A program made the translations under genes and the position numbers. Below the pieces are notes generated by a model. It saw only the letters and a program-made list of their open reading frames with translations, searched no databases and had not been told where the DNA came from. DNA of 64,000 nucleotides. It comes from Weissella coleopterorum. Its GTDB lineage: Bacteria > Bacillota > Bacilli > Lactobacillales > Lactobacillaceae. Location of the stretch: positions 682,001-746,000 of the forward strand of contig NZ_CP049888.1 in assembly GCF_011304355.1 (NCBI RefSeq), in the 5' to 3' direction. Position 1 is the stretch's first letter, and each line of letters starts with the position of its first letter. This document shows positions 4,532 through 62,795 of this stretch, in pieces.

Positions 4532-4990
4532 ATGGCCTTAAAAAAGAAAGCCCGGCAAACATTGATCTTAGAAATTTTAGCTCAACAGGTGATTGATTCA
4601 CAAGAAGAATTGATGCAAGCTTTACAACAAATGGGATATGAGGTGACGCAGGCTACAATTTCACGCGATATTAAAGAGTTACGAGTGGTCCGGCGTGCGG
4701 ATCAACATGGGCAAAACCGTTATCAAGTCTTGCCTGATAATGTCGAGACAACCCCTAGTTTGGTAATTGAAGGGGTGCAGGCGATGGCTACTGCAGCTAC
4801 GCAGGTTGAATTTATGATCTCAATTAAGACTACTCCTGGAAGTGGAAATCGCTTAGCAGCGTTAATGGATGCAAATCAAATTGATGAAGTTGTTTCAACG
4901 ATTGCGGGACATGACACGATTCATGTTTTATGCAAATCAAGGACAGCAGCTGATCAATTGATTAATAAATTAATAACATGGATTGAATAA
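4532..4990 (+). CDS. argR: Arginine repressor, ArgR/AhrC family
   Basis: This 152-residue regulator controls arginine biosynthesis and catabolism genes as a hexamer. Residues 1-70 form the winged helix with the recognition segment ATISRDIKELRVV; the C-terminal half is the arginine-binding oligomerisation domain. The usual binding signature GTIAGDDT reads STIAGHDT here, so one of the two conserved aspartates is histidine. The start follows AAAGGGGAAG. The stop codon at 4988-4990 directly abuts the ATG of the penicillin-binding protein, so the two are probably co-transcribed. Confidence 0.92.
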   Translation: MALKKKARQTLILEILAQQVIDSQEELMQALQQMGYEVTQATISRDIKELRVVRRADQHGQNRYQVLPDNVETTPSLVIEGVQAMATAATQVEFMISIKTTPGSGNRLAALMDANQIDEVVSTIAGHDTIHVLCKSRTAADQLINKLITWIE

Positions 4991-11097: not shown

Positions 11098-12051
11098 ATG
11101 AGTGAACAAAAACAATTAAAAGATTACCAACTAGATGAAAATATTCAGATGTTTGCTTTGTTAAAACAAGCAGATATACGTGTGACTAATAGTGGTAAAC
11201 CCTATATCGCGATAACGATTGCAGATCGCTCAATGGAAATTTCCGGTATGAAATGGGATGCTAGCGATGAAGAATTCAAAGTCTTAGAAGTAGGAAAAGT
11301 AGTCTTTATTAAAGCTGTCCGCCAATCTTATCGAGACAAGCCACAGTTGAAATTTTTAGAAATCCGGCCAGCGCATGAAGGAGAACCACAAAATGTGGCC
11401 GATTTTGTACCTAGTGGACCGATGAAGGCGTTGGAGATGGAAGAAGAAGTTAACACTCTGATTTTTAAAATTATTAATCCGACTTGGCAGCGGATTGTTC
11501 GATTCTTATTTAACCAATATCGTGACCAATTTTTTACCTATCCAGCTGCCAAATCAAATCATCATGCTTTTGCAGGTGGGTTAGGGTATCATTCCCTTTC
11601 TATTGCTCGTCTAGCACAAAGTGTGGCGCAGCAATATGAACAATTGGATGAAAGTTTGTTATTGGCTGGAGCGCTACTACATGATTTAGGGAAAGTTATT
11701 GAATTATCAGGACCGATTGCAACAACTTATACGATTCCGGGGAACTTAATTGGCCATATTGTACTGATAGATGAACAAATTGTCTTGGCTGCTCAAGAAT
11801 TGAAATTAGACCTGTTTAGTGAAGATCTAATTTTACTGCGGCATGTTATCTTGGCACATCATGGTCAGTTGGAATATGGTTCTCCTGTACGACCATTAGT
11901 TCAAGAGGCGAATGTTTTACACCAATTAGATGAGTTAGATGCCAATTTACAAAGTTTTGACAACGTATTGAATGAAACTGAACCGGGTGAATTTTCAAAT
12001 CGTAGTTGGGCGTTAGATAATCGATCAATTTATCGACCATCTGAAAATTAG
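11098..12051 (+). CDS. yhaM: 3'-5' exoribonuclease YhaM
   Basis: This 317-residue protein has an N-terminal OB-fold (about 15-95) and an HD phosphohydrolase domain with HHAFAGGLGYHS (about 154) and LLHDLGK (about 194), plus the later HHGQLEYGSP. YhaM trims RNA and can act on single-stranded DNA with Mn. The ATG at 11098 is chosen because GGGAGTGAG precedes it and the length then fits the family; an upstream ATG at 11059 lies inside yhaN. Three-gene yhaO-yhaN-yhaM operon. Confidence 0.9.
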   Translation: MSEQKQLKDYQLDENIQMFALLKQADIRVTNSGKPYIAITIADRSMEISGMKWDASDEEFKVLEVGKVVFIKAVRQSYRDKPQLKFLEIRPAHEGEPQNVADFVPSGPMKALEMEEEVNTLIFKIINPTWQRIVRFLFNQYRDQFFTYPAAKSNHHAFAGGLGYHSLSIARLAQSVAQQYEQLDESLLLAGALLHDLGKVIELSGPIATTYTIPGNLIGHIVLIDEQIVLAAQELKLDLFSEDLILLRHVILAHHGQLEYGSPVRPLVQEANVLHQLDELDANLQSFDNVLNETEPGEFSNRSWALDNRSIYRPSEN

Positions 12052-13432: not shown

Positions 13433-15277
13433 ATGAACAGAATGGATTTAGAAGAAATGCAAGCGCGCCAAAGTCATATTCGTAATTTTAGTATTGTTGC
13501 GCATATTGACCACGGAAAATCAACCATATCCGATCGGATTCTAGAAGCAACCCATACCGTGGCATCTCGTGATATGCAATCACAATTATTAGATACCATG
13601 GATTTAGAACGTGAACGTGGAATTACGATTAAAATGAATGCAGTTGAAGTGCATTATCAAGCTAATGATGGTGAAACGTATATTTTTCATCTAGTTGATA
13701 CACCGGGGCATGTTGACTTTTCGTACGAAGTTTCTCGGTCATTGGCAGCAGCTGATGGAGCCATTTTAGTGGTGGACGCAGCACAAGGTGTTGAAGCGCA
13801 GACGTTAGCAAACGTCTACCTGGCATTAGATAATAACTTAGAAGTTTTGCCATTGATTAATAAGATTGATCTGCCAGCGGCTGACCCAGAGCGCGTTCGT
13901 CAGGAGATTGAAGATGTTATCGGTTTAGATGCATTTGATGCAGTCTTGGCTTCAGCAAAAAAGGGGATTGGAATTCCAGAATTACTGGAGCAGATTGTGA
14001 ATGAATTGCCTGCACCTAGTGGGGAAATCGAAGCCCCCTTAAAAGCGTTAATTTTTGATTCATCATATGACGCCTATAAAGGGGTAATCTTAACAATCCG
14101 GATTAAAGATGGAGTAGTAAAGCCTGGTGATAAAATTAAGTTTATGAATTCTGGGGCGGAATACGAAGTCACAGAAGTTGGTGTAAACTCTCCCCATGCG
14201 ATTAAGCGTGATTTATTGATGGCGGGAGACATTGGGTATATCGCTGCATCTATCAAAAATATTCGAGATGCACGACCTGGTGATACGATCACTACTGTCG
14301 TTAATGGAGCTGACGAACCGTTGGATGGATATAAGCCAATGACACCGATGGTTTATTCTGGTTTGTATCCATCAGACAACTCTAAATATAATTATTTGCG
14401 CGAAGCTTTAGAAAAATTACAATTGAATGATGCTTCTCTGGAATTTGAGCCAGAAACTTCGCAAGCATTAGGGTTTGGTTTTCGAACGGGATTTTTGGGA
14501 ATGCTTCATATGGATGTCATTCAAGAACGTTTGGAACGTGAATTCGATTTAGATTTGATCACCACAGCACCCGCTGTTACCTATCATGCTTATCTGAAGG
14601 ATGGTGCTATGGTAGAAGTAGCCAACCCATCCGAATTACCAGATGCAGGTGAGATAGAGTCAATTGAAGAACCCTTTGTTCATGCCCAGATCATGGTGCC
14701 AAATGAATATGTTGGGGCAGTGATGGAATTGGCACAGCGTAAGCGAGGCGAATTCGATACAATGGACTATCTAGACGAAAATCGAGTTAACGTGAAGTAT
14801 TTTTTGCCACTCTCAGAAGTGATTTTTGAATTTTTTGATACATTAAAGTCAACGACTCGAGGATATGCTTCCCTAGACTATGAATTAGCTGGTTATCGTA
14901 AGTCTGATTTGGTAAAGATCGATATCTTATTAAATGGGGATAAAGTAGATGCTTTGAGTTTCATTGTACATCGTGAGTTTGCGCAAGAAAGAGGGCGGTT
15001 AATTACGATTAAGTTAAAAGATTTGATACCTCGGCGAAACTTTGAAATTCCCGTGCAAGCTGCAATTGGTTCTAAAATTATTGCTCGTTCTACTATTAAA
15101 GCATACCGAAAAGATGTTACCTCTAAAATTCATACGGGTGACCCTGATCGACGGGCTAAGTTGTTAGATAAGCAGAAAAAAGGTAAGGCTCGTATGAAGT
15201 CAGTTGGAACGGTAGACGTACCACAAGAAGCTTTCATGGCGGTTTTGAAGACTGATGATGATGGACCTAAAAGTTAG
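13433..15277 (+). CDS. lepA: Elongation factor 4, back-translocating GTPase
   Basis: This 614-residue translational GTPase acts on stalled or mistranslocated ribosomes. G1 is AHIDHGKST (about residues 23-31), G3 DTPGHVDF and G4 NKIDLP; the EF-G-like domains III and V and the LepA-specific C-terminal domain ([18 protein letters not shown]) are complete. The start follows AAAGGAGCGC. A TATAAT lies at 13398-13403, but no good -35 is visible. No damage is seen. Confidence 0.97.
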
Positions 15278-15863: not shown

Positions 15864-16159
15864 TAAAGATATATGCTACTTGATTGATGAAACAGGGATA
15901 TTTTGATTACTTAGAATGTATTTCTAGCTTTTTCTGCTTCTGTTTTTCTATGATTTTATAATAAGTGACCATATGCATTTTTAGTAATAGTGACGTTTGA
16001 ATGTCCTAGTCGGGCAGATATATAATTTATATCAACTTATTTACTCAATAATATGGAAGCGTGAGTATGTCTTGTCTATGTGGAGAGATAATTTTGGCTC
16101 CTATGATGGAATTACGGACAAATTGTTCGATATAATACATCATAAAGGAGCTTTTTATT

Positions 16160-16411
16160 ATGGTTATCAAATATTCAAATGACTTTAAAGAATCGATCGT
16201 AAGCTTGCATAAAGTTGGTCGTTCAGCTAATTCATTAGCAAAAGAATACAACGTTAGTGTTTCAACGGTTTCTAAATGGGTTAATCAAGCCGATCCTAAC
16301 AATACGAAAGTATTGTCAGCAAATGAAAGGGCATTGATTAAAGAAAATAAACAACTAAAAGAAGAACTTGATATTTTAAAACGAGCAGCGGTGCTTATGG
16401 CGAAAAATTGA
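16160..16411 (+). CDS. ISA transposase OrfA (copy 1)
   Basis: This 83-residue protein has an N-terminal helix-turn-helix (SLAKEYNVSVSTVSKWVNQ) that binds the IS ends, followed by a leucine-zipper-like coiled coil (IKENKQLKEELDILKRA). It overlaps OrfB by 4 bp (TTGA). As in other IS3 elements a -1 frameshift product OrfAB is probably the active transposase. Confidence 0.85.
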   Translation: MVIKYSNDFKESIVSLHKVGRSANSLAKEYNVSVSTVSKWVNQADPNNTKVLSANERALIKENKQLKEELDILKRAAVLMAKN

Positions 16412-17229
16412 TCATCAAAGGACGTATTCCTACCTTAAAAATTATTAATGACAATCTACAGGTTGGGCACCGCATTACTAAAATTTTGAACGTCCTCAGA
16501 ATTCCACGATCGACTTATTATGGCTATATACATTGGAAGCCTGGTAAAACACTTCTTCGTCGCAATTTCATTAAGCAAAAGGTATTAGATGCATGGTTAA
16601 AATATCCTATGTATGGATACCCGCGATTAACAATTTTATTAAATCGTCAGTTAAAAATTAAAATTAGCCAGCGTATGGTTTATAAACAGATGTACGCTTT
16701 AAAAATTAGGTCTAGGATGACTAAACGAATTAATAAGCCTAAAACACATACTGAATATGATCAACGACCAAATCTAATTAAAGGATTACCTGATCAATCC
16801 AATATTCTTTTAACAGATATTACGTATATTCCCGTTAAAAATACTTGGGTTTATCTAGCTAGTATGTACAATCCCGTAACCCGGCGGGTTATTTCTTATA
16901 AAGTTGGAAGTCATATGACTAAGGAATTAGCAACCGACGTCATTAATCAAGTCGCAGTAAAGTCTGTTAAACCAAGCATTATTCATAGCGATATGGGGAG
17001 TCGGTATACAAGCGATTTATTTGAAAGTACTTTAACTCGTTTTGGGATTAAGCATTCTTATTCTCGTAAAGGACAACCTGGTGATAACGCAAGAATTGAG
17101 AGCTTTCACTCAATTTTGAAGCGTGAATACATTAATTTTCAAGAATTTAAGACAATTCATGAAGCAATAGCTGGCATTGATAGCTATATTCGCTGGTATA
17201 ACAGTGATCGAATTTCCCTTGTAGCGTAG
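16408..17229 (+). CDS. ISA transposase OrfB (copy 1), DDE integrase domain
   Basis: This 273-residue protein has an HTH_21-like N-terminal region and an rve-type DDE core: first Asp in LLTDITYIP, second in IIHSDMGSRYTS, Glu in GDNARIESFHS. The usual DMGSQYTS reads DMGSRYTS in this copy only; copies 2 and 3 keep Gln. The TTG start overlaps the OrfA stop. Otherwise apparently intact. Confidence 0.85.
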   Translation: MIIKGRIPTLKIINDNLQVGHRITKILNVLRIPRSTYYGYIHWKPGKTLLRRNFIKQKVLDAWLKYPMYGYPRLTILLNRQLKIKISQRMVYKQMYALKIRSRMTKRINKPKTHTEYDQRPNLIKGLPDQSNILLTDITYIPVKNTWVYLASMYNPVTRRVISYKVGSHMTKELATDVINQVAVKSVKPSIIHSDMGSRYTSDLFESTLTRFGIKHSYSRKGQPGDNARIESFHSILKREYINFQEFKTIHEAIAGIDSYIRWYNSDRISLVA

Positions 17230-17956
17230 CTACAAATAAATCATATTAATATCCCGTTTAAAACGATAAGTATAGACGGGTTGTTTAGAATGGCATGGAA
17301 ACATTAAAGGATGCACTTTTTTAGATAAATCACATACTTTACCAGTACGTTAAATAATTAAAACGTTTTTCAAAATTTATTCGTATTTTTATGTCCGAAT
17401 TATTGACATAGGAGCCTTTATCACTACCAATAGCTTCTAATAATGATCGTAATTTTTTCCCGATGGCCCTCGTGCCATTTGTTTCACCAAAGATATGTTC
17501 ATCCAATAGTGAACATTCATTTATATATCTACTTAATTGTTTGAAAAATTTATCAGACATTTCTATTTTTCTGATAGATGACTTTGTTTTTGGATCTGAA
17601 TATGCAAATGGTCTATGAGCAGATTTGCTTTTATAGATGGACTCCTAACTGTTGTTTTAGCATAGTCATTTAAAAATCGTTGAAATACATTTTTGTCATT
17701 TCTTCTACGGTATAAACACTTAATCTTTCGTGAACGATTTTCTGAGCCGTATAGTGAGAAATTAATGTTTGTCTGTCCACACCCGAAATTTCGTATTTTT
17801 CCATCCAGTTATCGAAATAGTCAATAAATAGAGAAGAACGATAGCCATTCAATTCATTGTTATTGTGTGATGACTTAAAATTAATTTCAAATATTTCTGC
17901 TTCTTTTTTTGTTTGTCTTAACATATAACATGTTTTTTCACACGAATTAAATGTGC

Positions 17957-19902: not shown

Positions 19903-19945
19903 ATTAAAAGCCTACTGACTAGATTTCTAGTTGGTAGGCTTTTTT
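19903..19945 (+). terminator. Terminator of the LRR/MucBP gene
   Basis: AAGCCTAC and CTAG arms pair with CTAG and GTAGGCTT around ATTT, followed by TTTTTT. The same 43 bp recur at 26897 and, unexpectedly, at 62689. Confidence 0.88.
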
Positions 19946-20016
19946 GTTTTGGTTTATAGTAGAATACTAATTTGCACCAGTATCGGCTTATGTATTGGTA
20001 TTAAAGCGTTTATTAC

Positions 20017-22071: not shown

Positions 22072-22103
22072 AAATATAAATAGGTATAAGTGGGTGAACG
22101 TGT

Positions 22104-22228
22104 TATGCTTACACCAACGTCGGATGAGGTGTGCTTTATCGCAAGTATGGCATATCGAAATAATTCATCTGGCGTGGCCATTATAATTGTTCTAGACACG
22201 AGCGATAACTTTGGTTGTCACTTTTTTG
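22104..22228 (+). ncRNA. Repeated small-RNA unit, copy A (type I)
   Basis: Promoter-like TAGGTA (22081-22086), 17 bp, TATGCT (22104-22109) preceded by TGT. The stem pairs ACGTCGGATGA (22117-22127) with TCATCTGGCGT (22165-22175) through two G-U pairs. A terminator hairpin GCGATAAC-TTTG-GTTGTCAC plus TTTTTT ends near 22228. Four of the other five copies lie more than 26 kb away. No open reading frame is shared. Confidence 0.6.
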
Positions 22229-22264
22229 TTTATTTGATAATTAGGTTTATGTAAGTATAAGTGT

Positions 22265-22387
22265 TATGCTTGCGTTGACGTCGGATAGCATCTTATTCCC
22301 TTAAAAAGCACTCTCTTTTTAAAAAGATTCCGGCGTCAACGGACAGCCGTCCATAATGGAAAGCAATGACTTAGGTTGTTGCTTTTT
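22265..22387 (+). ncRNA. Repeated small-RNA unit, copy B (type II)
   Basis: TAGGTT (22242-22247), 17 bp, TATGCT (22265-22270). The stem pairs GACGTCGGAT (22277-22286) with ATTCCGGCGTC (22327-22337). The terminator is AAGCAATGAC-TTAG-GTTGTTGCTT followed by TTT (22360-22387), with two G-U pairs. It nearly matches copies E and F in the prophage. Confidence 0.65.
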
Positions 22388-22388
22388 G

Positions 22389-22528
22389 TTTGTAATTTAA
22401 GTGGCATGTCAACATTTTAATGAGTTTTACATTATAAAATGATTGCGCTTTCATAAAAATCAATGTTATTCTATGAATAAGTTATCAATGAGTGACTTAT
22501 ATATCTACTTTATTGCCATATTATATAT
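22389..22528. other. AT-rich spacer
   Basis: No gene or conserved element seen between small-RNA copy B and ISB. Confidence 0.5.
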
Positions 22529-23785: not shown

Positions 23786-24285
23786 TTCATTTAATATGTT
23801 ATTATTTAATCGTACAAAGTTATCTTCAATATGGGAGAAATATATAATGAAATTATGGAAACACGTATTAGCTAGTACTACAATTCTTATAATGATAGTA
23901 CCAACATCTGCGTTTGCCGATGTTCGATTGGATGTAAATAATAATATTTATAACAATCGTAATAAAATTGATAGTACTAATCAACAGATTGATGGTCTTG
24001 GTATAGTATCAAATTACTATATTAACAATAAATTAGTTAAATCACCTATTAATATAAATGGGCTTGGACATATAATTACTAAGGACAATATGGATGACGG
24101 CTCCTATGTCAATAATTCGGACATAAAAATACGAATAAATTTTGAAAAACGTTTTAATTATTTAACGTACTGGTAAAGTATGTGATTTATCTAAAAAAGT
24201 GCATCCTTTAATGTTTCCATGCCATTCTAAACAACCCGTCTATACTTATCGTTTTAAACGGGATATTAATATGATTTATTTGTAG

Positions 24286-25107
24286 CTACGCTACAAGGGA
24301 AATTCGATCACTGTTATACCAGCGAATATAGCTATCAATGCCAGCTATTGCTTCATGAATTGTCTTAAATTCTTGAAAATTAATGTATTCACGCTTCAAA
24401 ATTGAGTGAAAGCTCTCAATTCTTGCGTTATCACCAGGTTGTCCTTTACGAGAATAAGAATGCTTAATCCCAAAACGAGTTAAAGTACTTTCAAATAAAT
24501 CGCTTGTATACTGACTCCCCATATCGCTATGAATAATGCTTGGTTTAACAGACTTTACTGCGACTTGATTAATGACGTCGGTTGCTAATTCCTTAGTCAT
24601 ATGACTTCCAACTTTATAAGAAATAACCCGCCGGGTTACGGGATTGTACATACTAGCTAGATAAACCCAAGTATTTTTAACGGGAATATACGTAATATCT
24701 GTTAAAAGAATATTGGATTGATCAGGTAATCCTTTAATTAGATTTGGTCGTTGATCATATTCAGTATGTGTTTTAGGCTTATTAATTCGTTTAGTCATCC
24801 TAGACCTAATTTTTAAAGCGTACATCTGTTTATAAACCATACGCTGGCTAATTTTAATTTTTAACTGACGATTTAATAAAATTGTTAATCGCGGGTATCC
24901 ATACATAGGATATTTTAACCATGCATCTAATACCTTTTGCTTAATGAAATTGCGACGAAGAAGTGTTTTACCAGGCTTCCAATGTATATAGCCATAATAA
25001 GTCGATCGTGGAATTCTGAGGACGTTCAAAATTTTAGTAATGCGGTGCCCAACCTGTAGATTGTCATTAATAATTTTTAAGGTAGGAATACGTCCTTTGA
25101 TGATCAA
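24286..25107 (-). CDS. ISA transposase OrfB (copy 2)
   Basis: 273 residues, full DDE core (LLTDITYIP, HSDMGSQYTS, GDNARIESFHS). It differs from copy 1 by Gln for Arg in the second motif and looks functional. Confidence 0.87.
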   Translation of the reverse strand: MIIKGRIPTLKIINDNLQVGHRITKILNVLRIPRSTYYGYIHWKPGKTLLRRNFIKQKVLDAWLKYPMYGYPRLTILLNRQLKIKISQRMVYKQMYALKIRSRMTKRINKPKTHTEYDQRPNLIKGLPDQSNILLTDITYIPVKNTWVYLASMYNPVTRRVISYKVGSHMTKELATDVINQVAVKSVKPSIIHSDMGSQYTSDLFESTLTRFGIKHSYSRKGQPGDNARIESFHSILKREYINFQEFKTIHEAIAGIDSYIRWYNSDRISLVA

Positions 25108-25355
25108 TTTTTCGCCATAAGCACCGCTGCTCGTTTTAAAATATCAAGTTCTTCTTTTAGTTGTTTATTTTCTTTAATCAATGCCCTTTCATTTGCTGAC
25201 AATACTTTCGTATTGTTAGGATCGGCTTGATTAACCCATTTAGAAACCGTTGAAACACTAACGTTGTATTCTTTTGCTAATGAATTAGCTGAACGACCAA
25301 CTTTATGCAAGCTTACGATCGATTCTTTAAAGTCATTTGAATATTTGATAACCAT
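25104..25355 (-). CDS. ISA transposase OrfA (copy 2)
   Basis: 83 residues, identical in sequence to copy 1: helix-turn-helix followed by a coiled coil. It overlaps OrfB by 4 bp. Confidence 0.87.
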   Translation of the reverse strand: MVIKYSNDFKESIVSLHKVGRSANSLAKEYNVSVSTVSKWVNQADPNNTKVLSANERALIKENKQLKEELDILKRAAVLMAKN

Positions 25356-25995
25356 AATAAAAAGCTCCTTTATGATGTATTATATCGAACAATTTGTCCG
25401 TAATTCCATCATAGGAGCCGACTTTGACTTAAGTGATAAAGAATATCTATTAACTATATTAGATGATCCTCAATCGTTTTTGGAAAATGATGGTAATAAA
25501 ACGGTTTATGATTTAATGATATCTGAAGGTGAGGATTCCGATGAGACAGTGGAGTCGTTAAGTTCTAAGAATTCTTTTCAAGCTATGATATTAAAATTTT
25601 TGGCGAATTTTAAAACACATGGTATGAGTGCTGAAGAAATCAAAAAAGAGTATGACAGTAAATATAAACAAGATATCCATGATTATGATTCTGAACTGGG
25701 GGATCAAGCTGATCAGATATTTGATTCTGAAGATGAAGGCATTTTAAAAATGATGGCTGATTCTATGATTCCTCAATATACAAGAGTTTTAGGATTATCA
25801 GAAGAGATGTTTTGTAATATTAGTCCTGAAGAAACTAAAATAAAAGATGAATATTTTTTAAATTCAAAAGTTAAGGATATTGTTAACTTTGTCGACGATA
25901 ACGGAAATAAGCTTATTGATGTTAGTGTTATTGTAGCTTCCACCGATGATACTGGTGCTATACCATTTGCCTTTGTAGATAACGATTTACTAGGT

Positions 25996-26896: not shown

Positions 26897-26940
26897 AATT
26901 AAAAGCCTACTGACTAGATTTCTAGTTGGTAGGCTTTTTT
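26897..26940 (+). terminator. Terminator of the MucBP gene
   Basis: Same hairpin as at 19903-19945; identity between the two loci continues downstream into the att repeat. Confidence 0.88.
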
Positions 26941-27011
26941 GTTTTGGTTTATAGTAGAATACTAATTTGCACCAGTATCGGCTTATGTATTGGTATTAAA
27001 GCGTTTATTAC

Positions 27012-45313: not shown

Positions 45314-45520
45314 ATGGCTTTAGACGACAAATTAGACGGAATGAAGGATCAGGCAACAGGTAAGGTTAAAGAGGTATCTGGTAAAGTATCCGGTGATACT
45401 AAGACTGAAGTTGAAGGTAAGGCAGAAGGTTTAGTGGGAAAAGCTAAAGGTGCTTTCGGAGATGCCAAAGATGCAGCTGCGGATATGGTAGATGATGTAA
45501 AAGAAAAATTTAATAAGTGA
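45314..45520 (+). CDS. CsbD-family stress protein
   Basis: 68 residues with the CsbD pattern of repeated helical units (DKLDGMKDQATGKVKEVSGK, KTEVEGKAEGLVGKAKGAFG). CsbD proteins accumulate under general stress; the mechanism is unknown. It is followed by a GlsB-like membrane protein, a typical partner for cell-envelope stress genes in Gram-positive bacteria. Ribosome binding site GAAGGAGGAG. Confidence 0.88.
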   Translation: MALDDKLDGMKDQATGKVKEVSGKVSGDTKTEVEGKAEGLVGKAKGAFGDAKDAAADMVDDVKEKFNK

Positions 45521-45543
45521 TTTTTAGAATAGGGGGGGCTTTT

Positions 45544-45786
45544 ATGAGTTTACTTTGGACTTTAATAATTGGTGCAATTATTGGTACAATTGGTGGTGCT
45601 ATCACTAAAACTTCAATGGGCTGGATAGCTAATATCATTGCTGGATTAGTCGGTTCTTGGCTTGGTGAGACATTATTAGGGTCATGGGGACCGCATTTGG
45701 CTGGAATGGCATTAGTACCATCGATTATTGGGGCAGTTATCGTGGTAGTAATAGTATCATGGTTCTTTGGACGGAATAAAAACTAA
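45544..45786 (+). CDS. GlsB/YeaQ/YmgE-family membrane protein
   Basis: 80 residues, three hydrophobic Gly-rich helices (LLWTLIIGAIIGTIGGAITK; WIANIIAGLVGSWLGETLL; VPSIIGAVIVVVIVSWFFG). The family is called transglycosylase-associated from sequence only. ATG 45544 with GGGGGG upstream; the longer frame from 45517 lacks a ribosome binding site. It is the intact paralogue of the pseudogene at 29689. Confidence 0.87.
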   Translation: MSLLWTLIIGAIIGTIGGAITKTSMGWIANIIAGLVGSWLGETLLGSWGPHLAGMALVPSIIGAVIVVVIVSWFFGRNKN

Positions 45787-46106: not shown

Positions 46107-46817
46107 GTGCTTATAGAAAAGTTATGTCAACGAGGATACCGCTTAACAATGATTTTAAATAAATTAAGAATTCCACGACAAACTTATTATAATTGGATAA
46201 ATCATCATCCTTCACGACGTGAACAAGATGATCAACGTATTGGTAAAATAATGCTAAATATATGGCGTGATAATTATAAAGTCTATGGACGTCCATGTTT
46301 ACAAATGGCCTTACGGTCATTTGTGATTAGAATTGGTACGTCTCGTATAATTCGTTTAATGCATCAATTTAATATTCGTTCTCTTATGTGTCGCCGATTT
46401 AAAAAAACTGGAACGCATGTTGATTATGATCAGCGACCAAATTTAATAAAAAATTGTGATAAAAAAGTTTCAATCTGGAGAACTTATATTACTTATATAG
46501 AGGAATATCCAGGTCATTGGGTTTATTTAAGTAGTATTTATAGTGAAAGTAACCACAAAATTATTGCCTATAAAGTAGCAAATCAGATGACTAGTAATTT
46601 AGTAACAGATACATTGAAAATGGCATTATCACATCATAAAAGGCCGCAATTTATTCATTCTGATATGGGAAGTCAATATACCAGTAACCAATTTGAACAA
46701 TTACTCAAAAAAGTTAAAATACAACACTCGTATTCTCTCAAAGGTCATCCTTATGACAATGGACCAATTGAGGCCTTTCATTCAATTTTCAAACGTGAGT
46801 TTGTTTACCTAACTAAA
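46107..46817 (+). pseudogene. ISB OrfB, truncated by ISA
   Basis: About 235 residues match copy 1 up to REFVYLTK, then ISA begins. The first catalytic Asp is mutated (RTYITYIEEY instead of RTDITYIEEY), so the protein was dead independently of the truncation. Confidence 0.82.
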
Positions 46818-47004
46818 GGCTCCTATGTCAATAATTCGGACATAAAAATACGAATAAATTTTGAAAAACGTTTTAATTATTTAACGTACTGGTAAAGTAT
46901 GTGATTTATCTAAAAAAGTGCATCCTTTAATGTTTCCATGCCATTCTAAACAACCCGTCTATACTTATCGTTTTAAACGGGATATTAATATGATTTATTT
47001 GTAG

Positions 47005-47826
47005 CTACGCTACAAGGGAAATTCGATCACTGTTATACCAGCGAATATAGCTATCAATGCCAGCTATTGCTTCATGAATTGTCTTAAATTCTTGAAAATT
47101 AATGTATTCACGCTTCAAAATTGAGTGAAAGCTCTCAATTCTTGCGTTATCACCAGGTTGTCCTTTACGAGAATAAGAATGCTTAATCCCAAAACGAGTT
47201 AAAGTACTTTCAAATAAATCGCTTGTATACTGACTCCCCATATCGCTATGAATAATGCTTGGTTTAACAGACTTTACTGCGACTTGATTAATGACGTCGG
47301 TTGCTAATTCCTTAGTCATATGACTTCCAACTTTATAAGAAATAACCCGCCGGGTTACGGGATTGTACATACTAGCTAGATAAACCCAAGTATTTTTAAC
47401 GGGAATATACGTAATATCTGTTAAAAGAATATTGGATTGATCAGGTAATCCTTTAATTAGATTTGGTCGTTGATCATATTCAGTATGTGTTTTAGGCTTA
47501 TTAATTCGTTTAGTCATCCTAGACCTAATTTTTAAAGCGTACATCTGTTTATAAACCATACGCTGGCTAATTTTAATTTTTAACTGACGATTTAATAAAA
47601 TTGTTAATCGCGGGTATCCATACATAGGATATTTTAACCATGCATCTAATACCTTTTGCTTAATGAAATTGCGACGAAGAAGGGTGTTACCAGGCTTCCA
47701 ATGTATATAGCCATAATAAGTCGATCGTGGAATTCTGAGGACGTTCAAAATTTTAGTAATGCGGTGCCCAACCTGTAGATTGTCATTAATAATTTTTAAG
47801 GTAGGAATACGTCCTTTGATGATCAA
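47005..47826 (-). CDS. ISA transposase OrfB (copy 3)
   Basis: 273 residues with an intact DDE core (LLTDITYIP, HSDMGSQYTS, ARIESFHS). One difference from copy 2 is Asn for Lys in WKPGNTLL. Probably functional. Confidence 0.86.
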   Translation of the reverse strand: MIIKGRIPTLKIINDNLQVGHRITKILNVLRIPRSTYYGYIHWKPGNTLLRRNFIKQKVLDAWLKYPMYGYPRLTILLNRQLKIKISQRMVYKQMYALKIRSRMTKRINKPKTHTEYDQRPNLIKGLPDQSNILLTDITYIPVKNTWVYLASMYNPVTRRVISYKVGSHMTKELATDVINQVAVKSVKPSIIHSDMGSQYTSDLFESTLTRFGIKHSYSRKGQPGDNARIESFHSILKREYINFQEFKTIHEAIAGIDSYIRWYNSDRISLVA

Positions 47827-48074
47827 TTTTTCGCCATAAGCACCGCTGCTCGTTTTAAAATATTAAGTTCTTCTTTTAGTTGTTTATTTTCTTTAATCAA
47901 TGCCCTTTCATTTGCTGACAATACTTTCGTATTGTTAGGATCGGCTTGATTAACCCATTTAGAAACCGTTGAAGCACTAACGTTGTATTCTTTTGCTAAT
48001 GAATTAGCTGAACGACCAACTTTATGCAAGCTTACGATCGATTCTTTAAAGTCATTTGAATATTTGATAACCAT
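47823..48074 (-). CDS. ISA transposase OrfA (copy 3)
   Basis: 83 residues; differs from copies 1 and 2 by Ala for Val in the helix-turn-helix (NVSASTVSKW) and Asn for Asp in the coiled coil (EELNILKRA). Confidence 0.86.
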   Translation of the reverse strand: MVIKYSNDFKESIVSLHKVGRSANSLAKEYNVSASTVSKWVNQADPNNTKVLSANERALIKENKQLKEELNILKRAAVLMAKN

Positions 48075-48138
48075 AATAAAAAGCTCCTTTATGATGTATT
48101 ATATCGAACAATTTGTCCGTAATTCCATCATAGGAGCC

Positions 48139-48168
48139 ACTTTCTTTTTCTGGGGCGAATGGACATGA
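48139..48168 (+). pseudogene. 3' tail of a truncated phage gene
   Basis: The codons after ISA read TFFFWGEWT and a stop. Only nine residues remain; the upstream part is deleted. Confidence 0.35.
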
Positions 48169-48210
48169 TTTATCATTCTCTGGATATAGCATTGAAGAAT
48201 TAAATTAATA

Positions 48211-48262
48211 TTATAAATCACAGCGTCTACCATTTGTTGGGCGTTTTTTTGTAGGAGGAATT
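48211..48262 (+). repeat. Terminator/AGGAGG module, copy 1
   Basis: TTATAAATCACAGCGTCTAC, ...TTGGGCGTTTTTTT, GTAGGAGGAATTAATATG. The hairpin CGTCTACCA-TT-TGTTGGGCG with T7 is a terminator; a strong ribosome binding site and ATG follow but open only four codons. The same module recurs at 48972 and 49931. It runs directly into small-RNA copy C. Confidence 0.7.
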
Positions 48263-48293
48263 AATATGCTTAGGTTTAAATAGATAAACGTGT

Positions 48294-48416
48294 TATGCTT
48301 ACGCCAACGTCGGATGAGGTGTTTTATCGCAAGTATGGCATATCGAAATAATTCATCTGGCGTGGCCATTATAATTGTTCTAGACACAAGTGATAACTTC
48401 GGTTATCGCTTTTTGT
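48294..48416 (+). ncRNA. Repeated small-RNA unit, copy C (type I)
   Basis: TAGGTT (48271-48276), 17 bp, TATGCT (48294-48299) preceded by TGT. The stem pairs ACGTCGGATGA (48307-48317) with TCATCTGGCGT (48353-48363). The terminator AAGTGATAAC-TTCG-GTTATCGCTT has a UUCG tetraloop and one G-U pair, followed by T tract (48389-48416). Confidence 0.65.
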
Positions 48417-48451
48417 TTGTAAAATAATTAGGTTTAAATGATTATTAATGT

Positions 48452-48572
48452 TATGCTTGCCCCAACGTCAGATGTTATTATCCATCGAGAATCAACCTCG
48501 CAAAATAGCATCTGGCGTGGCCATTGAATTATCGTCCGGCACAAAAGTGATAACTTCGGTTGTCACTTTTTT
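48452..48572 (+). ncRNA. Repeated small-RNA unit, copy D (type I)
   Basis: TAGGTT (48429-48434), 17 bp, TATGCT (48452-48457). The stem is extended: ACGTCAGATGTTATT (48465-48479) pairs with AATAGCATCTGGCGT (48504-48518). An inner hairpin CGAG/CTCG sits in the loop. Terminator AAAAGTGATAAC-TTCG-GTTGTCACTTTT, T tract to 48572. Sequence changes relative to A and C preserve the pairing. Confidence 0.68.
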
Positions 48573-48609
48573 GTTTATTGGATAATTAGGTTTATGTAAG
48601 TATAAGTGT

Positions 48610-48737
48610 TATGCTTGCGGTGACGTCGGATAGCATCTTATTCCCCTAAAAAGCACTCTCTTTTTAAAAAGATTCCGGCGTCAACGGACAGCCGTCCATA
48701 ATAATGGAAAGCAGTGACTTATGTTGTTGCTTTTTTT
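48610..48737 (+). ncRNA. Repeated small-RNA unit, copy E (type II)
   Basis: TAGGTT (48587-48592), 17 bp, TATGCT (48610-48615). The stem pairs GACGTCGGAT (48622-48631) with ATTCCGGCGTC (48672-48682 region), followed by GGACAGCCGTCC. Terminator AAGCAGTGAC-TTAT-GTTGTTGCTT with T tract, ending near 48737. Nearly identical to copy B at 22265. Confidence 0.65.
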
Positions 48738-48772
48738 GTTTGTTTTAAGCTGTCACTATTACAATTAAGAGT

Positions 48773-48964
48773 ATGAAAATGAATAAATTTATCGGGGCTT
48801 TGTTGCTTATAAGTAGCATAGTATGCTTTATTATATATAAAGAGTTTAAAGGATTGATAGGTGTTTTTGAATCTCTTAACTATATAGTGGTAGCCAATTT
48901 GTTTGCTTCAGCAGGTATATTATGTTTGATAGCTGGGGTAATAATAATTTTTAGAGATAAATGA
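48773..48964 (+). CDS. Small two-helix membrane protein
   Basis: 63 residues: helix at about 6-22, polar loop, helix at 40-59, basic end FRDK. It sits between small-RNA copy E and the second terminator module, as an isolated cassette. No family recognised. The upstream Shine-Dalgarno sequence is weak (TTAAGAG). Confidence 0.55.
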   Translation: MKMNKFIGALLLISSIVCFIIYKEFKGLIGVFESLNYIVVANLFASAGILCLIAGVIIIFRDK

Positions 48965-48971
48965 AACAAAT

Positions 48972-49020
48972 AACAGCGTCTGATTAAATTCAGGCGTTTT
49001 TTTGTAGGAGGAATTAATAT
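48972..49020 (+). repeat. Terminator/AGGAGG module, copy 2
   Basis: AACAGCGTCTGATTAAATTC, AGGCGTTTTTTTGTAGGAGG, AATTAATATG. The hairpin (GCGTCTGA/TCAGGCG) is a variant of copy 1, with compensatory changes. It follows the small membrane-protein gene and runs into small-RNA copy F. Confidence 0.7.
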
Positions 49021-49046
49021 GTTTAGGTTTAAATTGATAAACGTGT

Positions 49047-49172
49047 TATGCTTGCGCAGACGTCGGATATCATATCTCTTTATATTAAGCATAACTCTCT
49101 TTTTAAAAAGATTCCGGCGTCAACGGACAGCCGTCCATAATGGAAAGCAATGACTTATGTTGTTGCTTTTTT
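49047..49172 (+). ncRNA. Repeated small-RNA unit, copy F (type II)
   Basis: TAGGTT (49024-49029), 17 bp, TATGCT (49047-49052). The stem pairs GACGTCGGAT (49059-49068) with ATTCCGGCGTC (49111-49121). Terminator AAGCAATGAC-TTAT-GTTGTTGCTT, T tract to 49172. The methyltransferase ribosome binding site follows 15 bp later. Confidence 0.65.
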
Positions 49173-49199
49173 GATATAATCTATTTTTGGAGGTAGGTT

Positions 49200-49928
49200 A
49201 TGACAAATATATATGATAATGAAAAATTCTTTGATGAATATTCAAAAATGAACCGAAGTAAAGAAGGTTTAAAAGGGGCTGGTGAATGGGAGGCTTTGAA
49301 AAAAATACTGTCCGAATTACAAAACAAAACCATGTTAGATTTAGGAAGTGGTTACGGGTGGCATAGTATTTATGCTGCTGAGCAAGGAGCTAAATACGTG
49401 TTAGGTATTGATAGCTCTGAAAGAATGTTAGCTACTGCTAAGCAGAAAAATAAATATAATAATGTTGAATTTAAGAATGTCGATATTAATAACTTAGAGT
49501 CATTGGACACTAAGTTTGATTTAGTATTTAGTTCGCTAGCTCTTCATTATATAGAGGATTTTGAGAAGGTGGTTGACGGCGTAAATTCTCTTCTAAATTC
49601 AAAGGGAGAGTTTATTTTTTCAGTCGAACATCCAATATTTACATCTGAGGGAACGGAACAATGGGTTTTAAATGACGATGGTTCTATTAAATATTTCCCC
49701 GTTGATAGGTACTTTGATGAAACAGTAAGGGAAACTAATTTTTGGGATACTCCAGTAACTAAGTATCATCGTACATTAGAAACATATATTGAAACTTTGA
49801 TTAGACACGGATTTTCAATACAGCATTTAATAGAACCTACGCCACCAGTTTCAATGTTAGATATTCCTGGCATGAAGGACGAATTCCGTCGTCCAATGAT
49901 GCTGATTATATCGGCAAAGAAAATATAG
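49200..49928 (+). CDS. Class I SAM-dependent methyltransferase
   Basis: This 242-residue protein has motif I MLDLGSGYGWHSIYAAEQGA, the acidic motif II (VLGIDSSERM) and motif IV region FDLVFSSLALHYIEDF, all of the UbiE/Methyltransf_11 type. The substrate is not evident. It is a single-gene cassette between small-RNA copy F and terminator module copy 3. TTGGAGGTAGG precedes the ATG. Confidence 0.85.
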   Translation: MTNIYDNEKFFDEYSKMNRSKEGLKGAGEWEALKKILSELQNKTMLDLGSGYGWHSIYAAEQGAKYVLGIDSSERMLATAKQKNKYNNVEFKNVDINNLESLDTKFDLVFSSLALHYIEDFEKVVDGVNSLLNSKGEFIFSVEHPIFTSEGTEQWVLNDDGSIKYFPVDRYFDETVRETNFWDTPVTKYHRTLETYIETLIRHGFSIQHLIEPTPPVSMLDIPGMKDEFRRPMMLIISAKKI

Positions 49929-49930
49929 AT

Positions 49931-49980
49931 TATAAATCACAGCGTCTAACATTTGTTAGGCGTTTTTTTGTAGGAGGAAT
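49931..49980 (+). repeat. Terminator/AGGAGG module, copy 3
   Basis: TATAAATCACAGCGTCTAAC, ATTTGTTAGGCGTTTTTTTG, TAGGAGGAATG. Stem CGTCTAACA/TGTTAGGCG. Here the ribosome binding site leads into two small open frames rather than a small-RNA unit. Confidence 0.7.
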
Positions 49981-50625: not shown

Positions 50626-50907
50626 TCCCCCCCTATCAATTCCAGATAAGTTTTATTTTTTTACTATTGAACGGGTCAGCCCGTACCGTACACAAACAAC
50701 GATTTCAAAACAATTTACTTTTAAAAGATACGTTAATGGCTATGGGCCGGGGTTATACTCTTGAAAATAATCAAATATTGATGTTTTTTATTGTTTTAAA
50801 TTGTATATTTTTGTATTAAATTGTATTTAAACGTTTCTTTTTGTATTATTTTTGGGTTAAACTAACAAAGTCATTAAATATAATTTGTTTAGAATGTGGG
50901 TATAAAA
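50626..50907 (+). promoter_or_regulatory. Upstream region of the restriction-modification operon with phased TTGTAT boxes
   Basis: No gene in 282 bp. A hairpin ACGGG-TCAG-CCCGT lies at 50671-50684. TTGTAT starts at 50801, 50811, 50821 and 50841, exactly one or two helical turns apart. TATAAT (50879-50884) is the probable -10. The boxes may bind a regulator or bend the DNA. Confidence 0.5.
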
Positions 50908-52908
50908 ATGTCAGTAAAATGGACTCTTGAAAGTGACGTTAATGATTGGGTAAAAGATCAATTAAAAGCAATTAAATTAAAAAAACATGTTGATTGGAAC
51001 GAAGAATCTAGTATGAGTGATTATTTGAAAGAATCACTCAAGGGATCCGCAAAAACAAAACGTAAAACTAATTTTGGTAAACCTGATTTTCATATTGAAA
51101 AATATAAAATACCAGTTATTTTTGAAGATAAGGTTAAGTTAAACAAATTAATTGCAAAAAATAAAGATGGCATAAAGATGGATGATACATCCATAGCTAA
51201 CTTCGCTGTGAATGGTGGATTATATTATGCACAGAGTATGATTTCGTCGGAAAAATACCATGAGGTAGTAGTGGTTGGTGTTGCTGGAGATTCAGAAGAT
51301 AATGTTGAGGTTGATACTTATTTTGTTTTCTCTGATCAAATTGAACCAAAACATCTTACTGAATATAAAACATTGGACTTCCTTCAATCTGAAGAATCTT
51401 TTGACGATTTTTATAAGAATGTGACTGTTACCGAAGAAGAAAAGCACCAAATCCTTATTAATACGAAGGAACAATTAGCAAAACACGCTAAAAATTTAAA
51501 TAAATTAATGAATAATAACGCAATTAATGTCGAACAACGCGTTGTTTATGTATCTGGAATGTTACTCTCTATGCAAGATATATATAAGAATGATAAATTT
51601 CTGCAAAGAGGATTAGTTCCAGATGATCTTATTGGAGCACAGACAGATAGTAAGCGTGATGGATCACAAGTATATGAACAAATTGAAGAATTTTTGAGAG
51701 CTAGAGGAATACCTGACGACAAGTTGAAGATCATGTTAGGACAATTTAAAAATGTTATTCAACTAGATGATGGGCGTGATGAATTAATTGAACTAGATAA
51801 AAACGTTTCGAAATTAATCACAGAATCAAAAGCATCAATTACCAAGCAAATATTTGTCTATATTTTTGAAAATATTTTTAAATCAATTGATGGTACAAGT
51901 TCTTTGGATATTATGGGAGAAATGTATTCCGAATTTTTGAAGTATGCACTGGGTGATGGTAAAGAAATCGGAATTGTTCTAACTCCGCCATATATTACAA
52001 AGATGATGGCTGAAATTTTAGATGTCAATAAAGATTCAAAGGTTATGGATCTAGCCACTGGATCGGCTGGATTTTTAATTGCATCTATGGAACGGATGAT
52101 AAGTGACGCAAATAATTCATTTGGTAAAAAGACAGAAAATGCTGCTAATAAAATTGAAGATATCAAACGTAATCAATTATTAGGAGTTGAGTTAGATTCC
52201 AAGATGTATACGTTAGCTGCTACTAATATGATTCTACGGGGTGATGGTTCTGCGAATATTCAAAAGGGTAGTTCTTTTGACCGTCCTGAAAGTTTGTACA
52301 CTAACTTTGGCGCAGATAGACTTCTCTTAAACCCGCCATTTAGTTATGACGAAAATGGGATGCCCTTTATAGCATATGGATTAGATCATATGGAAAGCGG
52401 ATATGCGGCTATTATTATTCAAGATTCTGCAGGTAGTGGTAAAGCTTCAAAAACAAATAAACATATTTTGAAAAGTAACACTTTATTAGCAAGTATTAAA
52501 ATGCCTACTGATACATTTATGCCAAGCGCTGGAGTTCAAACATCTATATATGTTTTTGAAGCGGGTAAGCCACATGATTATGATAATACTGTTAGATTTA
52601 TTGACTTTAGGAATGATGGTTATAAACGGACTAAGCGGGGAATAACTGAAATTGATCATCCGTTAGAACGATATCAGGATATTATTAAAATTTATAAAGC
52701 TGGAAAAAATGCTAAATTGTGTGAACACTCAGAATTGTGGAATTTAGAAGATATAGTTCTAGATGATCAAATTGACATCAATGGGAATGATTGGAATTTT
52801 GAACAACATCAAGTTATTGATACTACACCAACTGAAGAAGATTTTATGAAGACAGTAGGAGATTATCTGAGTTGGGAAGTTAGCCAATTATTAAAGGCTG
52901 GTGAATAG
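50908..52908 (+). CDS. Restriction-methylase subunit, BcgI-like (type IIB/IIG style)
   Basis: This 666-residue protein fuses a nuclease-like N-terminus (GKPDFHIE... VIFEDKVK, a PD-(D/E)xK pattern at about 58-75) to a helical linker and an N6-adenine methylase: SAM motif DLATGSAGF (about 380) and catalytic NPPF (about 474). With the separate specificity subunit next to it and no HsdR, it resembles BcgI-type systems that cut and methylate through one polypeptide. ATG 50908 is preferred over GTG 50896. Confidence 0.78.
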   Translation: MSVKWTLESDVNDWVKDQLKAIKLKKHVDWNEESSMSDYLKESLKGSAKTKRKTNFGKPDFHIEKYKIPVIFEDKVKLNKLIAKNKDGIKMDDTSIANFAVNGGLYYAQSMISSEKYHEVVVVGVAGDSEDNVEVDTYFVFSDQIEPKHLTEYKTLDFLQSEESFDDFYKNVTVTEEEKHQILINTKEQLAKHAKNLNKLMNNNAINVEQRVVYVSGMLLSMQDIYKNDKFLQRGLVPDDLIGAQTDSKRDGSQVYEQIEEFLRARGIPDDKLKIMLGQFKNVIQLDDGRDELIELDKNVSKLITESKASITKQIFVYIFENIFKSIDGTSSLDIMGEMYSEFLKYALGDGKEIGIVLTPPYITKMMAEILDVNKDSKVMDLATGSAGFLIASMERMISDANNSFGKKTENAANKIEDIKRNQLLGVELDSKMYTLAATNMILRGDGSANIQKGSSFDRPESLYTNFGADRLLLNPPFSYDENGMPFIAYGLDHMESGYAAIIIQDSAGSGKASKTNKHILKSNTLLASIKMPTDTFMPSAGVQTSIYVFEAGKPHDYDNTVRFIDFRNDGYKRTKRGITEIDHPLERYQDIIKIYKAGKNAKLCEHSELWNLEDIVLDDQIDINGNDWNFEQHQVIDTTPTEEDFMKTVGDYLSWEVSQLLKAGE

Positions 52909-52909
52909 T

Positions 52910-54028
52910 ATGGTTAAATTTAAAACATTTAAATTATCTGATTTTTTTAAAATTTTTTCCGGCAAGCAGCCTGATATTCATAACAGATTTGACACAAAAA
53001 AAGAAAATATGGTTAATACTATTACTGGTGCAACAACTAATAATGGCGTAAACTTTTATTCTTATTCAGAAAAATATAATATTGATGAACTTACTATTTC
53101 GAAAGATGGAGAATATGCTGGGACTGTCTTTTTGCAAACTAAGCCGTTTATTTTGGGTGGTCACGTTTTAGGTGTTTTTGGCAAATTTTATATTTCTAAT
53201 GAAGCGAAATTGTATATAGCAAGTTCCGTTATGAAGCGAAGAGAGTTATGGCGCGGCGCTGATAGGCCATCTGTCCAAAAAAAGAGGCTAGAAAATTTAG
53301 AATTAGAATTACCTGTCACATCAGACGGAGAACCTGATTTTGAGTATATGTCCGAATACGTAAAACGCATCGAAGCCGAATACGTAAAACGCATCGAAGC
53401 CGAATACGTAAAACGCATCGAAGCCTACTTGACAGTTTTAGGGTATCCGGATGTAGAATCAGTTAGACTGACACAGGCTGACAAAGAGGTATTATCTATG
53501 CACGCAAGTGCAGGTTTTGAAAAATATGAATTACGTTATTTATTCGATCATATAGTTCAAGGACGAAGATTAAAGAAAGATGATCAAATTAAAGGGAATA
53601 TACCATTTATTATGTCTGGAACAACAAATTTAGGTATAGTCGACCATGTTTCGAATCCAAATAAGGTGGCGCCTAAAAATTCTATAACAGTAGATATTTT
53701 TGGGAATTCCTTTTATCGTAATTTTGAATATGGTTATGGTGATGATACTGGAGCGTATTGGAATGAAGATAATAAATATAATCCATTTGTTATGGAATAT
53801 ATATCTGTAGTTATTAAAAAAACGTTATTAGGCAAGTATTCTTATGGTAAAAAGCTACGTTCATCTAAATCATTAGATATAAAAATTAAATTACCTATTG
53901 ATGAAAATAAATTGTTGAACATCGAATTAATGGAAAATTATATTAAGGTAATTCAAAAGAAAACTGTATTAAAGTTGAAAACAGAATTAGATAATAAATT
54001 AAAATTATATGAAGAAGCCTCAAAATGA
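52910..54028 (+). CDS. Specificity (S) subunit of the restriction-modification system
   Basis: This 372-residue protein contains two target-recognition half-domains: residues 1-150 (KTFKLSDFFKIFSGKQPD... KKRLENLELELP) and about 195-350 (KYELRYLFDHIVQG... SSKSLDIKIKLP), joined by a helical spacer that carries three perfect repeats of EYVKRIEA. It specifies the bipartite DNA target. The start lies one base after the upstream stop. A terminator hairpin overlaps its last codons. Confidence 0.83.
   Translation: MVKFKTFKLSDFFKIFSGKQPDIHNRFDTKKENMVNTITGATTNNGVNFYSYSEKYNIDELTISKDGEYAGTVFLQTKPFILGGHVLGVFGKFYISNEAKLYIASSVMKRRELWRGADRPSVQKKRLENLELELPVTSDGEPDFEYMSEYVKRIEAEYVKRIEAEYVKRIEAYLTVLGYPDVESVRLTQADKEVLSMHASAGFEKYELRYLFDHIVQGRRLKKDDQIKGNIPFIMSGTTNLGIVDHVSNPNKVAPKNSITVDIFGNSFYRNFEYGYGDDTGAYWNEDNKYNPFVMEYISVVIKKTLLGKYSYGKKLRSSKSLDIKIKLPIDENKLLNIELMENYIKVIQKKTVLKLKTELDNKLKLYEEASK
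53354..53425 (+). repeat. Three perfect 24-bp repeats in the S-subunit spacer
   Basis: GAATACGTAAAACGCATCGA plus AGCC is repeated three times without a mismatch, in frame, encoding EYVKRIEA. It lies exactly in the spacer between the recognition domains, where repeat number is known to change target spacing in EcoR124-type enzymes. Confidence 0.95.
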
Positions 54029-62116: not shown

Positions 62117-62689
62117 ATGTTAGATAGGAAAATAACTGTAAGCTTACGTGGTGTATTATCAATCGTAGTAGCTATTTTAATTTTAATTTTATTTTTGATT
62201 TCTTTACCCTACTTGAAATCTAAATATAGTAGTATTAGTGAAGTTTGCTTTATTTTAATAAAACAGATATTTACAATTTTAGTAACGATATTTATTGGGT
62301 ATGTAGGTGCTTCTGTAAAATTATGGATTGATCAAAAAAATTTAAAAATACAGTCAAAAAGATTAACTATTAAAAATTTAAAATTAATAAAAATAGAGCT
62401 TGAATCAAATTTATCTACTTTGGAACTATTCAATAGAGACGAAATCAGTAATTATGATATGCTAAAAATAAAATATGATGATAGTTTCACTAAAAAACTA
62501 TTTTTTAGTATAGAATGTAGAGATAGTTTGTCTAAATCAATAATTGAATTATTAGGTAAAGGACGAGTTTTTTTATCAGGCAGTGATGATCAGATTAAAA
62601 TTGCATTACCAAAGATGATTAAAAATTTCAAAAAAAATATTTCATTTATCGATGATGAAATTACGTATCTTAACGAATATAATAACTGA
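62117..62689 (+). CDS. Membrane protein 3 of the post-lysin cassette
   Basis: 190 residues with two N-terminal transmembrane helices (about 12-32 and 42-64) followed by a cytoplasmic helical domain (DQKNLKIQSKRLTIKNLKLI...). The layout, two helices plus a soluble tail, is common among effectors of phage-exclusion and abortive-infection systems, but no motif proves it. It starts 3 bp after gene 2, so the three are one operon. Confidence 0.7.
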   Translation: MLDRKITVSLRGVLSIVVAILILILFLISLPYLKSKYSSISEVCFILIKQIFTILVTIFIGYVGASVKLWIDQKNLKIQSKRLTIKNLKLIKIELESNLSTLELFNRDEISNYDMLKIKYDDSFTKKLFFSIECRDSLSKSIIELLGKGRVFLSGSDDQIKIALPKMIKNFKKNISFIDDEITYLNEYNN

Positions 62690-62731
62690 TTAAAAGCCTA
62701 CTGACTAGATTTCTAGTTGGTAGGCTTTTTT
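62689..62731 (+). terminator. Terminator of the post-lysin cassette
   Basis: Same 43-bp hairpin sequence as after both MucBP surface-protein genes (19903 and 26897), followed by TTTTTT. Confidence 0.88.
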
Positions 62732-62795
62732 CTTTTGAACAGTAAGTTATAGTAATGAACGGTATATGGCAGTATATAAATTTTATGGCAAAGTT

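Follow-up and report, generated by a model that had tools for sequence, protein, structure and literature searches.

The window analysed here, a 64,000-bp stretch (bases 682001 to 746000) of a single-contig genome of 1.62 Mb (G000), carries six members of a repeat family that is real, structured and equipped with a conserved promoter of its own, and whose members are most likely small RNA genes working like the csRNAs of streptococci or LhrC of Listeria. We propose, with a probability of about 0.55, that the copies encode sibling small RNAs expressed from a dedicated promoter, that their differing loops pair with the ribosome-binding regions of mRNAs, and that the family spread by duplication and by entry into prophage. 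If transcribed, the units would form a small RNA family that is still young, its promoter having been found in 2/397 genomes of the bacterial family, and its paralogues, at many stages of divergence, would offer a natural experiment on the gain of new targets with promoter and scaffold fixed, as well as on the carriage of small RNAs by phages.

Thirteen related units in two species

All six units (A to F) recognized in the preliminary description are present in the window (Table 1), with copy A starting at 22081 and not, as given there, at 22082. A family of six holds for the window but not for the genome, in which BLAST and a covariance model recovered nine good units (A to I) and a degenerate one (O); four diverged copies (J, K, M, and N), all within 3 kb, occur in a relative of the same genus (G014), for a total of 13 copies across two species. 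Outside the window, copies G and H lie at 801.9 to 803.0 kb and copy I at 20.0 kb of the genome, and copy O, at 801.8 kb (G000:801812-801917, or 4813 to 4918 of locus L036), combines a family-like stem and terminator with a different promoter region. As judged from searches of the own genome, the likeness among copies far exceeds chance (A versus C, E=1.3e-54; D versus C, E=6e-15; B versus F, E=6.7e-43; E versus F, E=5.5e-39). The proposed division into two subtypes (A, C, and D versus B, E, and F) was upheld and extends to the second species, which has members on both sides: in a tree of the copies, J groups with A, C, and D, and K and M group with B, E, and F, with N standing apart on a long branch. 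Several paralogous units, each with its own promoter and terminator, are thus found in one genome, as for multicopy small RNA genes, and a terminator is present on every copy.

Table 1. Units of the family and associated features in the window
Feature	Position	Strand	Description
Copy A	22081..22227	+	TAGGTA 22081-22086, TATGCT 22104-22109, stem-loop (z -3.54), small hairpin region, terminator
Copy B	22242..22387	+	TAGGTT 22242-22247, TATGCT 22265-22270, stem-loop (z -5.42), small hairpin, terminator
Copy C	48271..48414	+	TAGGTT 48271-48276, TATGCT 48294-48299, stem-loop (z -2.64), terminator
Copy D	48429..48572	+	TAGGTT 48429-48434, TATGCT 48452-48457, longest stem (z -5.35), terminator
Copy E	48587..48737	+	TAGGTT 48587-48592, TATGCT 48610-48615, stem-loop (z -4.69), small hairpin, terminator
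Copy F	49024..49172	+	TAGGTT 49024-49029, TATGCT 49047-49052, stem-loop (z -3.86), small hairpin, terminator
Copy F stem arms	49060-49067 and 49113-49120	+	
csbD-like gene and transglycosylase-associated gene	45314..45786	+	5' of copies C to F, separated from them by insertion sequences; associated, outside unit
Class I methyltransferase gene	49200..49928	+	Directly 3' of copy F; associated, outside unit
Phage-type terminator and ribosome-site module ending in ATG	48220..48270 (left end approximate)	+	Directly 5' of copy C; family D6/D9
Same kind of phage-type terminator-ribosome-site module	48976..49023	+	Directly 5' of copy F

A promoter dedicated to the family

The promoter follows the pattern TARGTWT...TGTTATGCTT, with 17 bp separating the hexamers. 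TA.GT, TGTTATGCTT, and the 17-bp spacing are invariant in 13/13 copies, the third letter being G in 12 copies and A in J, and the arrangement first described for the window (TAGGTW, exactly 17 bp, and TATGCT with TGT before it) is found in all six of its units. Searched in 397 genomes of the bacterial family, the exact pattern occurs in two, and its 13 sites there are the 13 copies, compared to 5 matches for a reversed control pattern; the promoter is thus dedicated to these units. Within the own genome, 9/9 exact sites belong to copies, and allowing up to 3 mismatches adds three sites versus 25 for the reversed control, while among 28 genomes of the genus, sites ending in TGTTATGCT were found in G000 and G014 only. 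The promoter letters have remained constant where the RNA body has diverged.

The usual promoter hexamer is TTGACA. TAGGTW is far from it, and transcription may therefore require an activator or a different sigma factor. A competence sigma-factor promoter was considered and rejected, the upstream region of comGA being devoid of TAGGTW/TATGCT. Since all copies share a single dedicated promoter type, they are probably switched on together, under one regulator or in one condition, and this non-consensus promoter points to a regulator whose sole visible sites would be these genes.

Predicted RNA structure

The units would be paralogous genes for a non-coding RNA with a predicted length of roughly 105 to 125 nt, whose 5' end would lie near the stem closing the long loop. 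The consensus fold comprises an 8-pair 5' stem around a loop of 35 to 54 nt, a 4-pair hairpin, and a 10-pair intrinsic terminator. This structure pairs 98.6% of the alignment cells, versus 94.9% in shuffled alignments (0/500 as high) and 59% or less when the structure is slid along the alignment. Among variant pair states, 8/9 still pair in stem 1 (3.3 expected under random substitution, P=0.002) and 11/12 in the terminator (4.0 expected, P=1.3e-5), and the count for hairpin 2 is not significant (3/5, 1.7 expected, P=0.20). Compared to shuffles, the 5' stem-loop folds with z from -2.6 to -6.0 in 11/13 copies, G (z -1.8) and H (z -1.6) being the weak folders. The stem sequences first quoted for the window, including that of D, are correct, and the terminator arms change together as reported (AGCAAUGAC/GUUGUUGCU versus AGUGAUAAC/GUUAUCGCU).

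Covariation, which the preliminary description had proposed to test with R-scape, was assessed on the 13 copies with an author-built, tree-aware test in which substitutions are re-dealt on the tree, a test of little power with 13 sequences and 0 to 3 substitutions per column. It returned 1/22 pairs at E<0.05, located in the terminator, and 0/8 pairs of stem 1; of the 25 column pairs with the highest scores, one lies within the structure and 24 lie outside it. Maintenance of the stem through sequence change hence finds support in the substitution counts, the shuffled and slid controls, and the folding scores, but is not proven by this stricter test, which is non-significant for stem 1. The conserved scaffold would provide stability and perhaps a site for protein binding.

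Conserved scaffold, divergent loops, and candidate targets

Mean pairwise identity is 0.70 in the scaffold versus 0.42 in the loop, and scaffold identity exceeds loop identity in 74/78 pairs, the remainder being near-identical copies; G and I, from the same genome, share 0.96 of the scaffold and 0.35 of the loop. Within the first 27 loop bases, a pyrimidine tract of 6 to 12 bases with at least 2 C is found in 6/9 distinct loops (B, F, G, J, M, and N); it is 4 bases long in D and K and missing from A, and the loops of both A and C lack a CU tract. The summed length of CU tracts at the loop start, a motif picked after looking, is 56 versus 36.8 in shuffles (9/1000 as high).

In the mechanism that we favor, the differing loop, with its CU-rich tract in 6/9 forms, would pair with the ribosome-binding region of an mRNA and block its translation, and the copies would thus be sibling small RNAs whose targets differ in part. 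Pairing of the loops with the Shine-Dalgarno consensus gave 0/13 loops below p 0.05, though 11/13 beat their own shuffle mean, and a comparison of the loops with 77 and 34 start regions singled out only G (p 0.025 in 40 shuffles, 1/13 tests), the other 12 lying at 0.1 to 0.83; these tests do not confirm anti-Shine-Dalgarno pairing of the loops. The best partner of the K loop among the 34 start regions is the neighboring csbD gene, and the second best of the F loop among the 77 is the neighboring methyltransferase, both ranks being uncorrected for multiple tests.

Comparison with known small RNA families

The csRNAs of the streptococcal CiaRH regulon are most alike among themselves in their unpaired target-binding stretch (PMC3091779). 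They share with the present units several paralogous genes, own promoters, a 5' stem-loop, a terminator, and candidate Shine-Dalgarno pairing, but in the present family conservation is lowest in the loop (0.42 versus 0.70 for the scaffold). The CiaR box TTTAAG-N5-TTTAAG is absent, the best site having 3 to 4 mismatches of 12 in 13/13 copies, and loop identity together with the Shine-Dalgarno test (0/13 loops below p 0.05) gave no conserved unpaired anti-Shine-Dalgarno stretch of the csRNA type.

The LhrC1-5 RNAs of Listeria repeat a nearly constant CUCCC motif in two loops as well as in a linker, and they depend on LisRK (PMC4132741). Multiple copies and CU-rich loop motifs, which are target sites in LhrC, are common to both families, and the paralogues stand under one regulator in LhrC and probably in the present family; the loops of the present family differ between copies, and Rfam gives no match. 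At the gathering score, none of 4227 curated RNA models, a set that may or may not include one for LhrC, matched the units. With regard to the UCCC-type motif of LhrC, the loops are mixed: TCCC stands in B, E, and N, J has CCCC without a preceding T, other CU tracts occur in F, G, H, I, K, and M, and A and C have none. With no CiaR box, a reversed conservation pattern, and no Rfam match, the family belongs to neither the csRNAs nor LhrC by the features tested. Copy I also resembles phage-encoded small RNAs and moron loci, the subjects of PMC4104026 and PMC7067206, in being an independent promoter-terminator unit among phage genes; no intact prophage is evident around the other copies.

Genomic neighborhood and phage context

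In both species the units lie near csbD-like genes, transglycosylase-associated genes, and a homologous methyltransferase gene, those of G014 being named by likeness to the genes of the window; copy G is followed by a broken methyltransferase homologue, and in G014 a homologue is found ~2 kb away from copy J. csbD matches are found in 26/28 genomes of the genus, including both carriers, and 20 csbD loci from 17 other genus genomes, searched for flanking diverged copies, yielded five weak and unconvincing matches (best E 0.023). Boxes like TGACAGCGCTTTCT, which we take to resemble catabolite-response (cre) sites, stand upstream of csbD-like genes in locus L038 and at 22440-22470 of the window and perhaps link csbD genes to carbon control.

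Copy I sits amid phage genes, with an HNH gene, both terminase subunits, and a portal gene downstream and a transcriptional activator upstream. A phage-type HNH gene lies ~1 kb from C-F and an endolysin gene ~2.6 kb from H. The terminator-ribosome-site module directly precedes C, F, H, and I, and is also present without a unit, e.g., at 49942 of the window and at 5900 of locus L037. A related phage region in another genome (G016) has one module before its HNH gene and no unit, from which we infer that the units entered by recombination at such modules. Copies would thus have multiplied by segmental duplication and by prophage entry, the latter probably through the repeated terminator-ribosome-site modules.

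Three identical 1.3-kb IS3-type insertion sequences occupy 16096-17422, 24093-25419, and 46814-48139 of the window, further insertion sequence copies adjoin units, and an IS1520-like sequence is ~79% identical to Latilactobacillus plasmids. Among related elements, a terminase is 74.5% identical to Lactococcus phage bIL309. A 49-bp terminator-like sequence recurs with 98 to 100% identity at 19903-19951, 26898-26946, and 62689-62737.

Alternative explanations

A scaffold that binds and titrates a protein, in principle like CsrB or 6S, with the loop as a spacer free to change, would account for the conservation of the scaffold but not of the loop and for the lack of enriched loop pairing at start regions. 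We hold it to be unlikely, since CU-rich tracts at the loop start are longer in sum than in shuffles, no 6S or Csr-type match was found in Rfam, and no protein is known to bind the scaffold. Less probable is that the units are a repeated DNA element or a remnant spacer of a phage, i.e., promoter-terminator cassettes multiplying without RNA function: insertion sequences and phage-type modules do surround the copies, but stem pairing is maintained between two species, the promoter letters are fixed despite the diverged RNA body, and bases 48140-49200 of the window have no DNA match in plasmid and phage records. Moreover, the 13 copies have no clear terminal inverted repeat (best 8 to 10 of 14, without a chance control) and no regular flank duplication.

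A role as leader or attenuator RNA of the downstream gene seems slightly more improbable still. The methyltransferase gene directly 3' of F and G, and the csbD-like gene following each of K and M in G014, would fit such a role, but an intact terminator ends every unit, the next gene is another unit for A, C, and D and an unrelated gene for others, and no single gene kind stands downstream of most copies. A short peptide product is very hard to reconcile with the data: the 10- to 11-codon frame that starts from an ATG before the terminator in B, E, F, H, I, and K, with a variant in M, has no ribosome site ahead of it, runs across the terminator hairpin, and does not occur in A, C, D, or N, while J has unrelated frames only. 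No open frame of at least 10 codons is common to all 13 copies, as the lack of a shared frame within the window had suggested.

Returning to sibling small RNAs with differing loops, a more far-reaching version, which we consider doubtful, would be a modular, partly phage-spread system in which loops are swapped as whole blocks on a fixed promoter and scaffold, yielding a co-induced, differently aimed set comparable to interchangeable guides.

Searches for further members and other repeated elements

No Rfam family matched the window or three related loci at the gathering score, the three sub-threshold matches having E of 1.2 to 4.8, and searches of the open-access literature on small RNAs of Weissella and lactic acid bacteria, and on csbD with small RNAs, gave no description of the family, which is weak evidence of absence. 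The initial proposal of a probable undescribed small RNA is supported in part: the dedicated promoter, the kept stem, the terminators, and the lack of an Rfam match and of a common frame speak for it, with the tree-aware covariation result against it, and "undescribed" refers to Rfam and to these literature searches.

Pattern scans of a collection of 84,980 species (6 matches) and of viral contigs (1 match) yielded 7 sites, all judged to be chance after folding; such scans may omit genomes near that of the window and thus set no limit to the distribution of the family among species of the genus. The covariance model R1 gave mostly weak matches in 19/28 genomes of the genus (E up to 0.1) and in 81/251 genomes of the bacterial family (E up to 0.01). 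Of 25 weak matches examined, 24 were judged to be common terminators or hairpins of no relation to the family, and copy O was the only one with the family stem.

Another species of the genus (G008) has two near-identical hairpin units (TACAGTYTRACTGTAGTTTTATTG...) before terminators, at 11289-11393 and 13931-14035 of locus L107, perhaps another repeated RNA element. Finally, a 24-bp sequence repeated three times in tandem without a mismatch (window 53352-53425) adds EYVKRIEA units to the product of gene 52901-54028, a probable specificity subunit that follows a type I methyltransferase-like gene (50896-52908); a change in repeat number is a known way for a specificity subunit to alter target spacing.
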